This document shows, piece after piece, positions 3,380 through 18,639 of a DNA stretch of 20,841 nucleotides (positions are counted from its first letter, which is position 1; each line of letters starts with the position of its first letter). Where the stretch lies: the IMG/VR virus record IMGVR_UViG_3300045999_007492, positions 1 to 20,841 of that record; one strand, given 5' to 3'. The position numbers were made by a program, and so were the translations under genes. The DNA comes from a virus. The notes under the pieces are model-generated. The model saw only the letters and a list, made by a program, of their open reading frames with translations. It did not search any database and was not told where the DNA came from.

Positions 3380-3895
3380 ATGGCCTCTAGGTGGGAAAAC
3401 AATCTTCCGGCAGCGATTCAACTTCTTCTTGACGTCAAGGACGAGGAACTAGGCGATTTCGCAGAGACCATTCGCAGTCAGACAGTCATCTCTCGCCTAG
3501 CATACAAGCGGGCCGTTGAGGCAGTCGCGCAGTCCGAGTATAGCTCGGCAGAGATTGTCGAGATGGGGGATACAACCGATGGTCCTAGCAACATTAGTGT
3601 TCTTCGCGATCGGGATATCACTTCCCGGTTGGAGATGGCCACAAAGGCGAACAAGGCCCTCGTGGATGTTAAAGCTGCCCGACTAGAGGCCCTTGAAAAG
3701 TTCAAAGAGAAGGCTCTCGATCAGCCCAAACCAGCAAACATCGTCTTCCATCGTACAGAGACGAGCCCCTCGCTGCTTGTGCGCAGGCTGCTCATTCTCG
3801 GGCGTACTGAGGAGGCTAAGACGGTGGCTCGGGACAACAAGTTGGACTGGGCGCAGTTCGAGCAGCATCGCTCAGTAGAGAGTGTCGAATCATGA
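3380..3895 (+). CDS. Terminase small subunit, candidate
   Basis: The 171-residue product begins MASRWENNLPAAIQLLLDVK and lies directly before the large terminase, overlapping it by ATGA (3892-3895), the usual position of the DNA-recognition subunit that selects phage DNA for packaging. Sequence similarity is not recognisable to me. It is mostly helical: AETIRSQTVISRLAYKRAVE in the first third, then a long charged helix (RLEMATKANKALVDVKAARL, ALEKFKEKAL) of the kind that forms the oligomer core of small terminases. The C-terminus SLLVRRLLILGRTEEAKTVA may contact the large subunit. ATG 3380 has no Shine-Dalgarno but sits six bases after the GATAAT -10 element, the arrangement of leaderless genes. 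An upstream in-frame ATG at 3338 is possible but would place the promoter inside the gene. Function is from position only. Confidence 0.55.
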   Translation: MASRWENNLPAAIQLLLDVKDEELGDFAETIRSQTVISRLAYKRAVEAVAQSEYSSAEIVEMGDTTDGPSNISVLRDRDITSRLEMATKANKALVDVKAARLEALEKFKEKALDQPKPANIVFHRTETSPSLLVRRLLILGRTEEAKTVARDNKLDWAQFEQHRSVESVES

Positions 3896-5373
3896 TTGAG
3901 CCCGACGAGCAGAGCAGTAGCTCTGAGCAAGAGGACGATATCGCGGGGGATTGGGGCGACATCAATGACCTGCTCGTGTGGCCCTGCCAAGAAGATTTCA
4001 TCTTCTCCGATTCCCCTAAAGCGGGGCTCTTTACAGGGGCCGGATACGGAAAGAGCAATGTGCTGATTCAAGCAGCCCTCAAACAGGCGGTAGAGCAAGA
4101 TGGATGGTGGAATCGGAGCCTAGACTGGAAGAGTAACCCCCTAAAGATCCTGATGGGGGCTCCTCATAATCGATACCTCGTCACACGCCTCATCCCAGGC
4201 TTCAATGGGCAGGTTGATGACTTCGAGCGACGCATCGGCAGAACCATCACCAAACGAACGGGTCGTAAGGGGGATGGATGGTTCACAAGTGCGAGCGAGC
4301 GACGACGGGAGATGGAGAACGGCACAACGTTCTACTTCTATGGACTGCATGAATCAGGAAACGCCGTCGCCATGGACTCCATCGGATTGTACATCGATGA
4401 GGTCACCATGCTCCGAAACCAAGACATTTGGCAACGTGCGCAGAATCGTTGCCGCGACCCGCGAGCAAATACACAACGCATTCGAGTAGTTGGGACTCCT
4501 GAGAAGGGGCATTTCATCTACGACGACTTCTATGACAACGATATTGTGAAGCCGGGCTGCGAGGTCTTTACGGCCTCTAGCCTGACGAACCCGCTTCTCA
4601 CCGATCAATTCTTTCAGACGATGGCTTCGGCGTCTGATTTCTACATCGACATGCAGGTTATGGGACAATGGGTTAAAGGCGCTTCCGGTCAGCGATTTGC
4701 GCGTTCTTTCGACGAAGACGTGCATCTACAGCCTATGAGTATCCCACCAAACCATCCTGGGGCGCGGTTCGATATCGGCTGGGATCCTGGATACGCCAGT
4801 GGACAGATCGTCATCATGTACTACAGCGAGAAGCGCAAGATTTGGTACGTCGTAGACGAGATCGTTATCCAGGGCTTCGGCACACAGTCCGCTTGTGAGA
4901 TGTTGAAGAATAAGGGGTACGGTGCGCATAACATACGACGCATTTTCATGGACCCGAAAGACGCTACAAAGCACAAGTCAAACGGGCCGCAAACAGATGA
5001 AAGCATTGTGCATAAGATGCTGGGCGTTCGCCCACGGGTGGCCTCGGTCCCCGGTCGAAATGCGATGCTTCGAACTCGTCTTGATGCTCTTGATGAGATG
5101 CTCAAAAATAATCGTGTAATCATCAACAGCACGCTAAAGCCAAAGAACACGCGCTCGCGCGGATTGGTCAACGCAATCAAGAACTTCTCTCTCCAGAAAT
5201 CTCGAAGCGATGAAGGCCGCGAACTAGATCGCCCTACATCGGAAACAGTGCAAGAGTGGAAGCACTCTATCGATGCGATACATTATGTGCTCATGAACTA
5301 CGAGCATGACGTCTATCGCAAGGTAACTCGAAACGACCCCGACAAAGTGGTCCATCGTCGAAAAGAGAGGTAA
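3892..5373 (+). CDS. terL: Terminase large subunit (DNA packaging ATPase and nuclease)
   Basis: The 493-residue protein drives DNA translocation into the procapsid and cuts the concatemer. The ATPase domain has Walker A GAGYGKS (49-55) with Lys54 and Ser55, Walker B IGLYIDE (164-170) with Asp169 and Glu170, and coupling motif VVGTP (199-203). The RNase H-like nuclease domain has its three acidic positions: Asp294 in FDIGWDPGY, Asp354 in IFMDPKD and Asp461 in HSIDAIHY. Length is normal for the family and both domains appear intact. The first 20 residues are Ser/Glu/Asp-rich and likely disordered. It is followed by the portal gene only 3 bp after its stop, the standard packaging order. Packaging type (cos or pac) cannot be told from the sequence. 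Confidence 0.93.
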   Translation: MIEPDEQSSSSEQEDDIAGDWGDINDLLVWPCQEDFIFSDSPKAGLFTGAGYGKSNVLIQAALKQAVEQDGWWNRSLDWKSNPLKILMGAPHNRYLVTRLIPGFNGQVDDFERRIGRTITKRTGRKGDGWFTSASERRREMENGTTFYFYGLHESGNAVAMDSIGLYIDEVTMLRNQDIWQRAQNRCRDPRANTQRIRVVGTPEKGHFIYDDFYDNDIVKPGCEVFTASSLTNPLLTDQFFQTMASASDFYIDMQVMGQWVKGASGQRFARSFDEDVHLQPMSIPPNHPGARFDIGWDPGYASGQIVIMYYSEKRKIWYVVDEIVIQGFGTQSACEMLKNKGYGAHNIRRIFMDPKDATKHKSNGPQTDESIVHKMLGVRPRVASVPGRNAMLRTRLDALDEMLKNNRVIINSTLKPKNTRSRGLVNAIKNFSLQKSRSDEGRELDRPTSETVQEWKHSIDAIHYVLMNYEHDVYRKVTRNDPDKVVHRRKER

Positions 5374-12661: not shown

Positions 12662-14068
12662 ATGGTTGACGGAAAGAGATCAGATTACATTGGGCTATAT
12701 TTTATGCCCGAATCCAGTTACGGCGTGGACCCCGGCATTGTCGCGGCATCTAACGTCGACGGTACGAGCGAGACCTATCGCTTTGTGCCTACTTCTAGCC
12801 GTCGAGCCTTCGTTCGCTTGGCAGAGAAGCCCTCGGGCCTTCCTAAGCAGCCGCTCGTCGATGTGCCGCAGATTTACTCGACCCATGACTACGACACCTG
12901 CAAGGTGCGCGGAATCAAGGACACTGGCGAGTTCAGCATCTCCATGCACATCCATGGCCCTGTGACCGACTTCGGCACCACCGGAGCCACGGGCCGCACC
13001 CAGCCTCCTCCCTGGCTACAGCTTGCTGGCAGCGCCTGTGGCTTCCTGCTCGGCAATAAGACGGGGCAGAGCGGCGGAGCTGCGGACACTGTCGCAACGT
13101 CCACCAGTGGCAAGGTCTTCACTGTCACCACTGGGGCTGTTGACGAGGGCCATGTTCTCGCAATCCCCGCACCTGGCAGCAGCACGGACTTTGAGATTGT
13201 CCGCCCGACCACTGTCGCATCGAGCACGTCCGTATCCAATATCGCCTACAACGGGGTGGATTGGGGTTTCACGGCTACTCCTGTCGCAGCTGAGAACGTC
13301 TACTACGCTTGTCAGGGCGCTTTCGATAAGCGTTTCGAGGGCGTGGCTGAATCCTTCACCATGCTCCTGCAGCGCGCAGACAGCAACGCGAGCATCAAGT
13401 TCACGGGCGCGCGCTGCTCCGGGGTGGAGATCACGTCGAAGGTCGGCGAACTCCCCATGATCAAGCTCTCCTTCATCTACCGCGACTATGTCTACGTCAC
13501 TGACGCGATTGACGATGAGCCTGAGTATGTGACCACGTTCCCCTGCCCCGCTGTGACTCAGGGCGCGAAGCTCTGGATCACCTGGGACGAGGATGCCGAT
13601 GGTAATATCGACGCCTCTGATCGCAAAGAGAACATGGAGCTTTCTAGCTTCAATCTCAAGTGGACGCCGGGCTATGTTCGCCGCAAGGCCAGCACTGCCA
13701 GCGACGGTATCGCAGAGGTCATCTGCTCGCAGAAGAGCGAGTTCGAGGTCAGCTTCGAGACCCTCTACAATCAGGATTGGCAGGATTATCTCGGGCTCTG
13801 CTGCAACGAGAACTTCGCCTCGCTGTCGCTCTGCTACTGGGAGCCCAACGCGGACTTCGTCCGCACCAGCGCCACGGATACGCGCCAGGGCGCTTGGTTC
13901 GCCTTCGTGGCCAATGCCCATCAGCTTGAGGATCCGGGCACTGAAGGTGAGATGGACTCCATCATGTACCAGACCATTCGCCTCGGCTGCGGCAACTACA
14001 CCGGGGATAACGGTAACTTTGGAACCAGCACGCACATCGATACCAAGTGGCTTATCGGGGTTGTGTAA
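12662..14068 (+). CDS. Major tail (tube) protein with an EF-hand-type loop, candidate
   Basis: The 468-residue product lies between the neck proteins and the chaperone-tape measure block, the standard tube position. GGGAGG (12650-12655) precedes ATG 12662. Tube-like features: early RSDYIGLYFMPESSYGVD, a GEFSISMHIHGPVTDF (89-104) strand pair, VEITSKVGELPMIKLSFIYR (255-274) and NMELSSFNLKWTPGYVRRKA (324-343), resembling the paired strands of the tail-tube beta-sandwich. An inserted Ser/Thr/Gly-rich segment (about 132-195) may be a surface domain. DEDADGNIDASD (309-320) fits a complete EF-hand loop: Asp1, Asp3, Asp5, Gly6, Asn7, Ile8, Asp9, Asp12. It is longer than minimal tube proteins (about 200-250), consistent with decoration domains. 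No sheath gene is adjacent. Confidence 0.65.
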   Translation: MVDGKRSDYIGLYFMPESSYGVDPGIVAASNVDGTSETYRFVPTSSRRAFVRLAEKPSGLPKQPLVDVPQIYSTHDYDTCKVRGIKDTGEFSISMHIHGPVTDFGTTGATGRTQPPPWLQLAGSACGFLLGNKTGQSGGAADTVATSTSGKVFTVTTGAVDEGHVLAIPAPGSSTDFEIVRPTTVASSTSVSNIAYNGVDWGFTATPVAAENVYYACQGAFDKRFEGVAESFTMLLQRADSNASIKFTGARCSGVEITSKVGELPMIKLSFIYRDYVYVTDAIDDEPEYVTTFPCPAVTQGAKLWITWDEDADGNIDASDRKENMELSSFNLKWTPGYVRRKASTASDGIAEVICSQKSEFEVSFETLYNQDWQDYLGLCCNENFASLSLCYWEPNADFVRTSATDTRQGAWFAFVANAHQLEDPGTEGEMDSIMYQTIRLGCGNYTGDNGNFGTSTHIDTKWLIGVV

Positions 14069-14071
14069 TCC

Positions 14072-14100
14072 TTGACAATACGCTGAGCATGCGATAGAAT
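14072..14100 (+). promoter_or_regulatory. Strong sigma-70 promoter for the tail operon
   Basis: TTGACA (14072-14077, perfect -35), 17 bp, TAGAAT (14095-14100, 5 of 6 at -10). Predicted start near 14107. It sits 4 bp after the tube stop and would drive the tail chaperone, tape measure and later genes. The best promoter match in the window. Confidence 0.85.
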
Positions 14101-14135
14101 GGGGGTCGGTGGAAACACCGTCCCCCTTTGTTTTT
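14101..14135 (+). terminator. Intrinsic terminator overlapping the promoter start site
   Basis: GGGGG-T-CGGTG-GAAA-CACCG-T-CCCCC (14101-14126; 10 bp with one T-T mismatch and a GAAA tetraloop) followed by TTTGTTTTT (14127-14135). A standard rho-independent terminator for the tube operon. Because the start site of the overlapping promoter lies near 14107, transcripts begun there lack the GGGGG arm and should escape, keeping only a 5-bp GAAA-capped hairpin at their 5' end. Confidence 0.85.
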
Positions 14136-14146
14136 GGAGGCCCTAG

Positions 14147-14689
14147 GTGGCACGCAAAGCTCGCTCTAACGCAACTACTATCGCTCGCTTCATTGCCTTC
14201 GACGACGACTCAATCGGGGGCGACCCCAATACGCTCGGTGAACGCTACGAGAAGTACCTCAATACCGCTGATTTGAGGCCTCTGGAACTCGATAAGGACA
14301 AGGCCCCTGCCTACTACTATGTGCGGCCCTTCACGAGCCAGGAACGCGCGATTCTGCGCGATTACTTCGAGTCGGTGCGCGAGGTCTCGGATGAGAACTC
14401 CGAGGAGACCAAGCTGAGCGCCCTCGATACGCAGGACATCGTGGAACGGTTCGGCGTTGTGCGCCGCAGCGTGCTGCAGAACTGCCTGGTTGGATGTATC
14501 GACCATCCTACGGTCGGCGGGGAACTCCCGGACGACGGCGTGCTGCAGGTCAAGCACCTCAAGTGGAATATCGGCAGCCCGGAGCCAGCGGGACTCAAGG
14601 AAGCCATCCTCGCGGACGAGATGCTGGTGGGGGCGATGCTGACCTTCCTGTTCACCATCTCGCGCCTGAGTGAAGACGAAAAAAACTAA
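14147..14689 (+). CDS. Tail assembly chaperone, short (zero-frame) product
   Basis: The 180-residue protein starts at GTG 14147 after GGAGG (14136-14140, 6-nt spacing). It lies between the tail tube and tape measure genes and ends in GAA AAA AAC TAA, a frameshift site, which identifies it as the first of the paired tail assembly chaperones (lambda gpG type) that coat the tape measure during tail tube assembly. The start is basic (MARKARSNATTIARFIAFDD). A middle segment PAYYYVRPFTSQERAILRDY is followed by helices with RFGVVRRSVLQNCLVG and, near the C-terminus, LADEMLVGAMLTFLFTISRL. Mixed acidic C-terminal end (SEDEKN). The 180-residue size is normal. See the longer product that continues in the -1 frame. 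Confidence 0.8.
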   Translation: MARKARSNATTIARFIAFDDDSIGGDPNTLGERYEKYLNTADLRPLELDKDKAPAYYYVRPFTSQERAILRDYFESVREVSDENSEETKLSALDTQDIVERFGVVRRSVLQNCLVGCIDHPTVGGELPDDGVLQVKHLKWNIGSPEPAGLKEAILADEMLVGAMLTFLFTISRLSEDEKN

Positions 14690-15069
14690 TAAAGCTGGCG
14701 TGTTGGGAATCCGAATGGCCTATTCGGCAGCTTCGTTGCGAGGCGTGCGGTGGGCGCAAGGAATCGGATGGGCATATACGCAAAGTTCTAGGGTGCGACA
14801 ATCCGCTCCCTAACAACCGCCAGCATGTCATCAAACGAGGAAACGCGCTTCCTCCTCTGACGCTCAATACCTGCCCTAGAAAAGCGATTCAGCCTGCTAG
14901 TGCATACTTCAGCGTCTACAACTGGGCCAAGAAGGGGCTACTGGAATATCAGTATCCCCCAGAGGCCCTCCCAGCTAAATACGCCGAGGCAATCGAGTGC
15001 ATCGATGTGGAGCTGGATGAGAAGCATAACACGCTGACAGAAGCGAGTAAATCGCGAAGCAAGGAGTAG
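14147..15069 (+). CDS. Tail assembly chaperone, -1 frameshift fusion (gpG-T type)
   Basis: A -1 slip at A AAA AAC (14680-14686) moves ribosomes to a frame that is open from 14686 to TAG 15067-15069, adding 127 residues for a 307-residue fusion. The extension begins LIKLACWESEW; it has no start codon near its beginning, so it is invisible to normal gene finding. It reads as real protein: RCEACGGRKESDGHIRKVLG (197-216), then PLPPLTLNTCPRKAIQPAS and a C-terminal YFSVYNWAKKGLLEY with ALPAKYAEAIECIDVELDE. Cysteines 198, 201, 217 and 243 make a CxxC-based, possibly zinc-binding, pattern. The CPRK...W..KG.L.Y...PAKYAEAI order resembles T-type extensions in other siphoviruses. The whole 380-bp gap before the tape measure is explained by it. 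Confidence 0.85.
14680..14733 (+). other. Programmed -1 frameshift site with a downstream stem
   Basis: Heptamer A AAA AAC (14680-14686) lies in register with the upstream codons (GAA AAA AAC TAA). After a 5-nt spacer, AAGCTG (14692-14697) can pair with CAGCTT (14728-14733), and CCGAAT (14711-14716) with ATTCGG (14722-14727) around a GGCCT loop. This gives a stem whose 3' strand is 12 continuous bases and whose 5' strand carries a 13-nt bulge. Both the slippery site and the spacing match known stimulators. Confidence 0.8.
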
Positions 15070-15075
15070 CCCACT

Positions 15076-18000
15076 ATGGCCCGAACCACTGCACACCTTG
15101 AGGTTACTGTAAACGACAAACAGCTTGTCGACCACGCCTCAACCTTGAAGCAAACTCGGGATACTTGGGATAGCCTTGTCAAGGCAGCCAAAGATTTCAG
15201 CGGGGCCTATACTCAGGACATGGGCAAGGGATTTACCGACCTGGGTAAAGGCCTCGCTGCGTTCAACAGAGTCGATGCTACTAATATCGCTGCTGTTTTC
15301 CAAGGCCTACAGGAAGTAGCTAAAGTCGATCTATCCAAATTCGTTAAATCTACTGAATCTTTTGTGAAGCAATTAGAACCGCTAATAGCTGGTACATATA
15401 ATTGGGCCAATCAGCTGGGACGTGTCTTCGGCTATATCAAATCGCTGGACGAGCGGCTTGATTCATTGGGCATTCAACAGCAAAGGACCGTGCAGCTTTC
15501 CAATCAATTTGAGGGTGAACTCAAGCAGATTACGGACGCGATGAAGCTGCAGGCCGATACCATGAAGGGCCTTGTGCAGAGCTACGCTGGGTTGAACACA
15601 GCAGTACAAAAAACTGCGAATGCTCAGGATAAGGTCACGGATACGACAGTTAAACAAACTAAAGAGATAGAGAAGGGAGTAGCCAGCCTTAAAAACTTTG
15701 AGCGCGCCTTTATTCGACATGCTACAGCGATGTTTATTGCGGATCAATGGCTTAAGTCGATCGTCGATGGCTTCAGAACGGCTGCCCAAGAAATGGATCT
15801 GAGCCGTGTCATGGCGCGAAACGCTGCGGGCTTTCAACAGATTTTTGAGGATACCAAGAAAGCGACCCAGGGTATGGTCAGCAATCTGCAGATCCTAAAG
15901 TCATCTGCACTGATGTCCTCCTTCGGTATTCCGATTCAGAATCTCGCGCAAAACATGGAACTCATCCAGAAGATGGCCATTCGAACGGGCCAGCCGATGG
16001 AATACATGATGGACTCTTTTGCGCGCGGCGTTTCGCGTTTGAGCCCTGCCATCTTGGATAACTTGGGTCTTCAAATCAAACTCGGCGATGCGTATACGGC
16101 TTTTGCAGCTAAGATAGGCAAAAGTACCGACAAGATGGACGCTTTTGACAAAAAGACAGCCGTCTTGAATGAAGTTCTTCGGCAGATGGGAGATTTGACT
16201 AAGGATATTGATCCTTATGCCAGCATTTCAGGACGCCTAGATAGGGTATCTGCTACTTTTGACAACTGGCTCAATGGTCTGAAAGGAAGTATTCTAAAAG
16301 GACTGCTTTCTATCAATATGACGACACAGCAGGCGCTCGGTATGGCTGCCGACTCCTTGGCTATCTATGTCAAAGAGCTTAAAGAATTCGATGTAGTAAG
16401 AACAAACGAAGCCAAGTATGCCACAGTCGCCATCAATGAAATCTATCAGAAAGAGGTAGACCAGCTTGCTGATCGAAGAGAAACCTTCCTTCGTATCTTC
16501 ACTCTTAATCTCATGGACGAAGAGTGGTATTACGAGGGCCGCCGGAACGTCGTCGAAGATTACATCATAAAGCTGGATGCTCTTACTGATAAAGAAGCAG
16601 AGAATCTCGAAAAGGAACGTAAGGCTTCTAAAGCTCGATACGATAGGAATGCTGTTCTGAGCAAACAGCTAGAAGACGTAACCAAGCAGATTGATGCCCT
16701 ATATGAGAAATATACCACAGTTGACGGAGAAACGCTTTCGCCTGCATCCGATGAGATGCTTAAGAACCTTGAAGCACGCAAAAAGAGCCTAGCTGCATCT
16801 ATTGAGTATTTTGAAATGCTCAATTGGAATATTGAGCAAATCTCTAAATACAAACTCCCGGAAGATTCCGTTCTCGCGGCAATTACCAAAGAAGTTAGAG
16901 CTTCTTATGCAAATCAACAGCTTAAAGCCCTAGAGGCTTTCCGCCAAGCTGCGGCTAAGGGGGACGCGTTAAGCCTTGCTCGTAGTGCATGGGATCTTGC
17001 AAAATTAGTAGATTATGAGAAAGCTATAAACAATATTGTGCAAGATCGTTACCGCATATATATGCAAAGAGAAAGCCAAGCCTTTGCAGAACTAGATCGT
17101 GCCAAGCAGCTTGTTATTCAGAGCCAAATGCTTGTGGACAAAGACGGCACACGACTATCCCTTGCTTTCGAGATGGAAGCCAAACAGCAGGAGCTTAATG
17201 CCGCACAAAAGCTCTATGTAGAAATGGATGAAAAAGCCAATGTCCGTAAAGGAGAAGGAGCAGAGTATTCGGCAGAACAAGTTCTCGCTCAAGCTCAGAA
17301 GGTCAAAGGTATCGCGCAAGAAGTAGCCAAGCTACAAGAACGCGCAGCCCTTGATGAGCGCATTAACGGCCTCTTGAAAGACCAGTCCTTCTGGACTGAC
17401 CAGATGAAGCGGGATGAGGCCGCGCGCCTCAGCGGCGGCAAGACTCGCGAAGAGATCCAGATGCGCATGGTCGTGCTGCAGAAGGAACTCAATGATGATC
17501 TGCGTAAACAACGAGATATTGAACTCGGTATTGTGGATAGCACTGCAGACCAGCTCAAGAATAGAATCTCTCTTTGGGGCTTCGCTTCATTCTTCTTGGA
17601 TAAGTTCGTCACCGGCCCTGCCGCTGTGGAGAAGCGCAAGAAAGAGCTTGATGACCTGATCAAGGCTCTAGGCTTGATGGGGTCAGGCGGTGGAGGGGGC
17701 GCTGAGGGCGCGAAAAAAATAGATCAAATGTATGATACCGCAGGATGGGATGAAATCCTCATAGAAGATAAACTACGCCAAGCAGCCCGTGAACGAGCAG
17801 CAGATGCGCTGGCGAGCGCACAAAAGGCCACTACGGAGCGTCTCACACGTCAAGAAGAACTGGCGAAACTTGAGATTGAAATTCTCAATAATAGACGAGA
17901 CCTTCGTATACAAGATGAACTTTTCAAGAGTGATGCAAAGGACGCCAAGGGCACGCTTGCAGACAATATAAAACTGCTCGAGACGCTTAGAACATACCAA

Positions 18001-18639
18001 GAAAAGTATAAAGATGTCATGACCTTTGAGGAGGCCATGTATATCCGAGGATTCATCACTGGCATTCAAGACAGCAACAAAGTCTTGATGGAGCACATTC
18101 GCCTGTGGGAGCAAGTAATTCAAGGGCTTAGAGATTACGGCACCGCAGCAGACTGGGCCATGAAGTATGCTAAGGGAATCATCAGCGACACCGAAATCAA
18201 GGTCATCGGAGACCTCACGGCAAACCTTGGAGGACTGGCGTCTACCATGGAGAAAGCCCTTGGAGGCACAGCCGATAGCTATGACCTGATGGGGGCTGGA
18301 CTCAATGTAATCCGAGGATTCACAGGGGAATACATCAAGGATATGAAGCAGCGCGCCAAGGTCGAGATGCTTATGAACGGTGCCATGTCTTTCGCTGCTA
18401 TGGCCATGGGCAATGTGCCTAAAGCCATCAGCCACGCGACCGCTGCTACCATGTTCGGCCTCGTGGCGGGGGGCGCAATCAGACTCCCCGGACAGGCCAG
18501 CGGACAAGACCAGAAGCAGAGCACCCAAGCAGGCCCGCTCCATATCCACCTCTACTCAGAGATGGCCATGACCGACGCAGAGCGCGGCTACTTGATTGAC
18601 CGGGCTGTACAGCAGGCCGCAGCGGAGGGCCGCGTATGA
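15076..18639 (+). CDS. Tail tape measure protein
   Basis: At 1187 residues this is the longest gene, just after the tail chaperones, as expected for the ruler that sets tail length and later enters the cell. AAGGAG (15061-15066) precedes ATG 15076. Mostly helical and charged, it starts MARTTAHLEVTVNDKQLVDH. The region around 210-345 (RAFIRHATAMFIADQWLKSI, then TRGVSRLSP-type FARGVSRLSPAILDNLGLQI) matches the conserved first part of many tape measures. Long coiled-coil stretches follow (about 490-850). A Gly-rich hinge MGSGGGGG lies at 868-875. Near the C-terminus a hydrophobic segment is seen (MSFAAMAMGNVPKA, then TAATMFGLVAGGAIRL, about 1104-1140). By the lambda ruler of about 0.15 nm per residue the tail would be roughly 170-180 nm. 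Its middle is more AT-rich than the neighbouring genes. Confidence 0.9.
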   Translation: MARTTAHLEVTVNDKQLVDHASTLKQTRDTWDSLVKAAKDFSGAYTQDMGKGFTDLGKGLAAFNRVDATNIAAVFQGLQEVAKVDLSKFVKSTESFVKQLEPLIAGTYNWANQLGRVFGYIKSLDERLDSLGIQQQRTVQLSNQFEGELKQITDAMKLQADTMKGLVQSYAGLNTAVQKTANAQDKVTDTTVKQTKEIEKGVASLKNFERAFIRHATAMFIADQWLKSIVDGFRTAAQEMDLSRVMARNAAGFQQIFEDTKKATQGMVSNLQILKSSALMSSFGIPIQNLAQNMELIQKMAIRTGQPMEYMMDSFARGVSRLSPAILDNLGLQIKLGDAYTAFAAKIGKSTDKMDAFDKKTAVLNEVLRQMGDLTKDIDPYASISGRLDRVSATFDNWLNGLKGSILKGLLSINMTTQQALGMAADSLAIYVKELKEFDVVRTNEAKYATVAINEIYQKEVDQLADRRETFLRIFTLNLMDEEWYYEGRRNVVEDYIIKLDALTDKEAENLEKERKASKARYDRNAVLSKQLEDVTKQIDALYEKYTTVDGETLSPASDEMLKNLEARKKSLAASIEYFEMLNWNIEQISKYKLPEDSVLAAITKEVRASYANQQLKALEAFRQAAAKGDALSLARSAWDLAKLVDYEKAINNIVQDRYRIYMQRESQAFAELDRAKQLVIQSQMLVDKDGTRLSLAFEMEAKQQELNAAQKLYVEMDEKANVRKGEGAEYSAEQVLAQAQKVKGIAQEVAKLQERAALDERINGLLKDQSFWTDQMKRDEAARLSGGKTREEIQMRMVVLQKELNDDLRKQRDIELGIVDSTADQLKNRISLWGFASFFLDKFVTGPAAVEKRKKELDDLIKALGLMGSGGGGGAEGAKKIDQMYDTAGWDEILIEDKLRQAARERAADALASAQKATTERLTRQEELAKLEIEILNNRRDLRIQDELFKSDAKDAKGTLADNIKLLETLRTYQEKYKDVMTFEEAMYIRGFITGIQDSNKVLMEHIRLWEQVIQGLRDYGTAADWAMKYAKGIISDTEIKVIGDLTANLGGLASTMEKALGGTADSYDLMGAGLNVIRGFTGEYIKDMKQRAKVEMLMNGAMSFAAMAMGNVPKAISHATAATMFGLVAGGAIRLPGQASGQDQKQSTQAGPLHIHLYSEMAMTDAERGYLIDRAVQQAAAEGRV

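Follow-up and report, generated by a model that had tools for sequence, protein, structure and literature searches.

A probable lambda G/GT-type -1 frameshift adds a four-cysteine extension to a putative tail assembly chaperone in a virus and its relatives

The Locus

The stretch of DNA analyzed here, referred to throughout as the window, is an IMG/VR virus record of 20,841 bases. Its tail region is arranged in the order tail protein, gene 14147–14689, extension, and tape measure, so that the putative chaperone and its extension stand directly 5′ of the tape measure gene (Table 1).

Table 1. Features of the chaperone locus (window coordinates)
Feature	Position	Strand	Details
Probable tail (tube) protein, upstream	12662–14068	+	Weak match to PHROG 290 "minor tail protein" (E = 3e-5), plus position
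Zero-frame gene, putative G-like tail assembly chaperone body	14147–14689	+	180 aa; GTG start
Substitution-free stretch versus sister contig, spanning the heptamer	14672–14770	+	99 nt
Slippery heptamer A AAA AAC	14680–14686	+	-1 phase; TAA TAA directly 3′
-1 frame extension, putative T-like domain	14680–15069	+	129 aa including two slip lysines; stop TAG 15067–15069
Candidate downstream stimulatory stem, weak	14692–14733	+	AAGCUG...CAGCUU with inner stem; -15.2 kcal/mol, z -1.5 (49 nt)
Tape measure protein	15076–18639	+	1187 aa; PHROG 3779 tail length tape measure (E = 1.2e-7)

The zero-frame gene is preceded by GGAGG at 14136–14140, 6 nt 5′ of its start, and it closes with GAA GAC GAA AAA AAC TAA TAA. 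The 386 nt that separate it from the tape measure ATG would be left as a hole by a gene caller, and the -1 frame is open across them. An earlier, sequence-only reading of this DNA had described these features, and its account of the gene end, of the open -1 frame filling the gap, and of the missing start near the beginning of that frame holds in every case. The frame is open from 14674 to 15069, running 126 codons beyond the zero-frame stop (129 residues when counted from the heptamer), and its first ATG, GTG, or TTG is the GTG at 15007, just 20 codons from the end.

Neither the length of the frame nor the position of the heptamer is readily expected by chance. Under the local base composition, an open frame of 126 codons has P = 0.003. 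The zero and -1 frames overlap for just 16 nt (14674–14689), and the in-phase A AAA AAC lies inside that overlap; as the plus strand of the window carries 16 heptamers of the form XXXYYYZ (Y = A/T), ∼0.004 in-phase heptamers would be expected there by chance.

Several observations concern the rest of the window. Between the end of the tail gene and the chaperone (14072–14140) there is a sigma-70-like TTGACA-17-TAGAAT (11 of 12), then a GC-rich hairpin with a T-rich tract, and then the GGAGG and GTG. This region is kept in the sister contig described below, and chaperone and tape measure may therefore be transcribed from a promoter of their own, and/or the tail gene may be followed by a terminator. 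Further upstream, 135–977 encodes a ThyX-type thymidylate synthase (Pfam Thy1, E = 1e-16), and the product of 1365–2141 has a C-terminal match to a phage GroES-like co-chaperonin (PHROG 3188, E = 5e-6), on a longer, uncharacterized N-terminal part. The nearest annotated relatives of the large terminase (3892–5373) are Jerseyvirus-like phages at ∼25% identity, and the best of the tape measure matches listed are Vibrio phages (Demerecviridae); the lineage is mosaic and unclassified.

Selection on the -1 Frame

When viral contigs were scanned directly with the window proteins, the locus turned up in one sister contig only (L002, IMGVR_UViG_3300051212_000869), which differs from the window at 71 of the 929 positions spanning 14147–15075. 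Within the extension, reading in the -1 frame makes 18 of the 22 substitutions synonymous; the two alternative frames give 2 and 0. The expectation is 6.8, and 18 was reached in none of 5000 permutations. The extension is coding, and purifying selection acts on it in the -1 frame. The zero-frame gene behaves similarly, with 44 of 48 substitutions synonymous, and chaperone plus extension are 98% identical between the two contigs.

Substitutions are absent from 99 nt around the heptamer. Given the codon-position pattern, a gap of this size has P = 0.002 over the heptamer and P = 0.016 anywhere, which hints at a possible RNA signal besides the heptamer itself. DNA similarity to the sister stays at ∼91% up to 15591 and then ends within the tape measure gene, of which the remainder (15592–18639) has 74% amino acid identity; the break at 15592 is possibly a recombination breakpoint or a site of fast divergence.

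It is fair to ask whether one continuous gene was simply split by a missing or extra A, given that this is a metagenomic contig with a homopolymer of seven. The sister contig has the same junction despite its 71 differences, and cultured phages likewise have the extension in -1, at heptamers of different sequence. These observations contradict an assembly or sequencing error, to which we assign a negligible probability.

Relatives of the Extension

The way into the wider family was Agrobacterium phage JP1, which matches the extension weakly (E = 0.05), yet over its full length and in the same place before the tape measure. From JP1, tblastn reached other annotated phages, namely Rhizobium phages L338C, P11VFA, RHph_I4, TM16, and Y1_11, Rhodobacter phages RcTiptonus, RcKickapoo, RcMenchie, RcDurkin, and RcZahn, and Alteromonas phage P24. 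When left out of the profile, the extensions of P24 and Y1_11 still match it, at E = 6e-11 and 2.5e-46, respectively. Scans added a further 20 viral contig loci with the extension. A first genome scan gave no match, and a second found the extension in four MAG contigs labelled Hyphomicrobium, Loktanella, Burkholderiaceae, and Acetobacteraceae. The family is carried mostly by phages of alphaproteobacteria. Matches to Staphylococcus in the extension search were set aside as chance; one that was inspected lies within an EF-Tu-like gene.

The window belongs to this family. When a profile was made from the relatives only, leaving out window and sister, and run against every six-frame ORF of the window, the -1 frame came top at E = 2e-4, with the runner-up at 0.62; a profile–profile comparison gave E = 1.4e-5. 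The cysteine signature of the family is present as well: cysteines are invariant across the extensions in the arrangement C-x2-C, then C, then C-P(-R), and the window has C20-x2-C23, C39, and C65-P66-R67.

Gene order agrees. In JP1, L338C, RHph_I4, RcZahn, RcTiptonus, and P24 the -1 frame extension is flanked by an upstream gene on one side and the annotated tape measure on the other, and at the end of its record TM16 shows the two frames related in the same way. Wherever a tape measure is annotated (Agrobacterium, Rhizobium, Rhodobacter, and Alteromonas phages) the extension adjoins it on the 5′ side, the downstream gene being identified by annotation in the phage records only, as MAG and viral contigs are unannotated. 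In the annotated phages the extension either appears as a hypothetical gene in its own right or is missing from the gene list.

The upstream bodies are another matter. No significant homology by sequence was found between the body of the window and the bodies of the extension relatives; because these are not detectably related, conservation within the pair is higher in the extension than in the body.

A Conserved Heptamer and a Variable Start

Among the distinct sequences whose junction is intact, all 27 place the extension at -1 relative to the upstream gene and carry a heptamer in phase (Y1_11, whose junction falls across the record start, was left out). The heptamer is mostly A AAA AAC, with A AAA AAG, A AAA AAA, and G GGA AAC also occurring. 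Please note that the viral scan was done partly with a pattern, KKLRLGV, in which the slip lysines are contained and which could favor A-rich heptamers; loci that were matched only beyond those lysines, such as L028 and L033, have the heptamer too, and the phage records came from tblastn. Counting against the frameshift reading, A AAA AAC is reported to be a weaker site in E. coli than A AAA AAG (PMC5009743).

The variety of heptamers also bears on transcriptional slippage, whereby the polymerase would add a base on the run of seven consecutive A at 14679–14685 and so fuse the frames. Such a run exists in the window, but polymerase slippage fails to account for G GGA AAC, with three A, or A AAA AAG, with six, placed in the exact phase for tRNA slipping, and we regard this route as very improbable.

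The sequence-only reading had pointed to homologues with a start of their own as one finding that would speak against a frameshift, and these deserve careful inspection. Many Rhodobacter- and Rhizobium-type relatives do have an ATG ∼12 codons beyond the heptamer, which in some cases overlaps the stop of the upstream gene (TAATG or TGATG), and annotators call separate genes there. The extension could on that basis be an independent gene, expressed from a non-standard start or by translational coupling at the upstream stop. The methionine is, however, replaced by Leu in locus L038 and by Ile in L037. No start is found before or within the first cysteine pair in the window, the sister contig, JP1, RcTiptonus, or P24, and none of these, nor L037 or L038, has a methionine of its own in the first 30 codons. 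The near-cognate CTG at 14695 has no Shine-Dalgarno nearby on inspection. The ATG is common yet absent from some relatives, whereas the heptamer is present in all 27 even when an ATG is close by; it is the heptamer, not the start, that is conserved. A separate gene is for these reasons a highly unlikely explanation, and a -1 frameshift is much to be preferred.

In 14 relatives a stem lies 8 nt 3′ of the heptamer, with 93% of cells paired versus at most 44% when slid, and it shows compensatory changes, both sides being altered at two pairs. JP1 has a strong downstream stem of its own (z -6.0). The stem is clearer in most relatives than in the window, for which a weak candidate is listed in Table 1 and for which longer stretches showed no folding excess over shuffles.

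For RcZahn, the 2021 genome paper reported no clear frameshift sequence (PMC8601537). This statement is contradicted by an in-phase A AAA AAC at L015:2501–2507, with the extension in -1.

The Four-Cysteine Domain

The sequence-only reading had proposed a homology search of the extension against tail chaperone families, and the outcome is divided: relatives were found in phages, as described above, and Pfam, PHROGs, and NCBIfam gave no family match, tail chaperones included. The zero-frame body likewise has no match in Pfam or PHROGs. As family libraries are silent, the body's label of "tail chaperone" rests on position, architecture, and the frameshift. Homology is not defining here, since the ORFs of G/GT-type chaperones share low sequence similarity between phages (PMC5009743). 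The Cys4 extension family appears to be undescribed in the libraries and papers searched; neither its signature nor its existence as a family had been noticed in the sequence-only reading.

Structure prediction was of limited help. AlphaFold confidence was low for the body (pLDDT 35) and for the extension (pLDDT 51), too low for fold comparison, and the low-confidence model places a helix at the C-terminus of the extension. PDB profile matches of the extension (designed helical proteins, antibodies) were judged to be spurious, and no homologue of solved structure was found.

The four conserved cysteines suggest zinc binding. A fuller proposal, to which we give even odds, is that these cysteines make the extension a Cys4 domain that binds zinc and is better conserved than its partner in the pair, the chaperone bodies that carry it having diverged beyond recognition, and that it would serve as a metal-stabilized tail-tube recruitment module absent from lambda T.

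Comparison with Known Systems

Among the closest known systems is lambda gpG/gpGT, with its G GGA AAG heptamer. The gene order is shared, running from the tail tube through G and the -1 frame T to the tape measure, as is the location of the heptamer near the end of G, and the extensions are similar in size (147 aa from the heptamer in lambda, 129 in the window). Unlike lambda, the window uses A AAA AAC; the lambda T domain is without cysteine and does not match the extension profile, and the window body is not detectably related to lambda G.

Among phages of Caulobacter, gp93/gp94 of phiCbK and gp116/gp117 of CcrColossus have an annotated frameshift before the tape measure and the same heptamers, which in phiCbK-like phages are AAAAAAC and GGGAAAC (PMC3556154). 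Their extensions (gp94 and gp117) differ in having neither the four cysteines nor a profile match. JP1, L338C, RHph_I4, TM16, RcZahn, RcTiptonus, and P24, in contrast, share with the window a homologous -1 extension, an in-phase heptamer, and the CxxC...C...CP signature, although their bodies are too diverged for significant alignment with that of the window.

Proposed Mechanism and Its Meaning

We put at ∼95% the probability that a lambda G/GT-type programmed -1 frameshift makes two forms of a tail chaperone here, the long one bearing the Cys4 extension. This is the class to which the sequence-only reading had assigned the locus, and the heptamer, the -1 selection, and the 27 of 27 relatives strongly support it. 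The reading is supported by position, the in-phase heptamer, the lack of an own start, selection in the -1 frame, and the frame relation in all 27 sequences.

Gene 14147–14689 would encode the short, G-like tail assembly chaperone. On A AAA AAC, some ribosomes would slip back one base and read on to 15066, giving a longer, GT-like protein with a 127-residue Cys4 C-terminal domain. By analogy with lambda, the short form may be made in many copies and coat the tape measure protein encoded next, and the long form, in few copies, may use its extension to recruit the tail tube protein. That slipping occurs in vivo, how abundant the two forms are relative to each other, which partners they bind, and that the cysteines hold a metal are what we infer.

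The mechanism class is already known; the extension family appears to be new. The domain libraries searched lack it, and genomes that carry it show a separate hypothetical gene or a gap. For those annotating such phages, the Cys4 signature together with an in-phase heptamer provides a direct rule for finding these extensions, and the invariant residues offer a handle on the role of the T domain.
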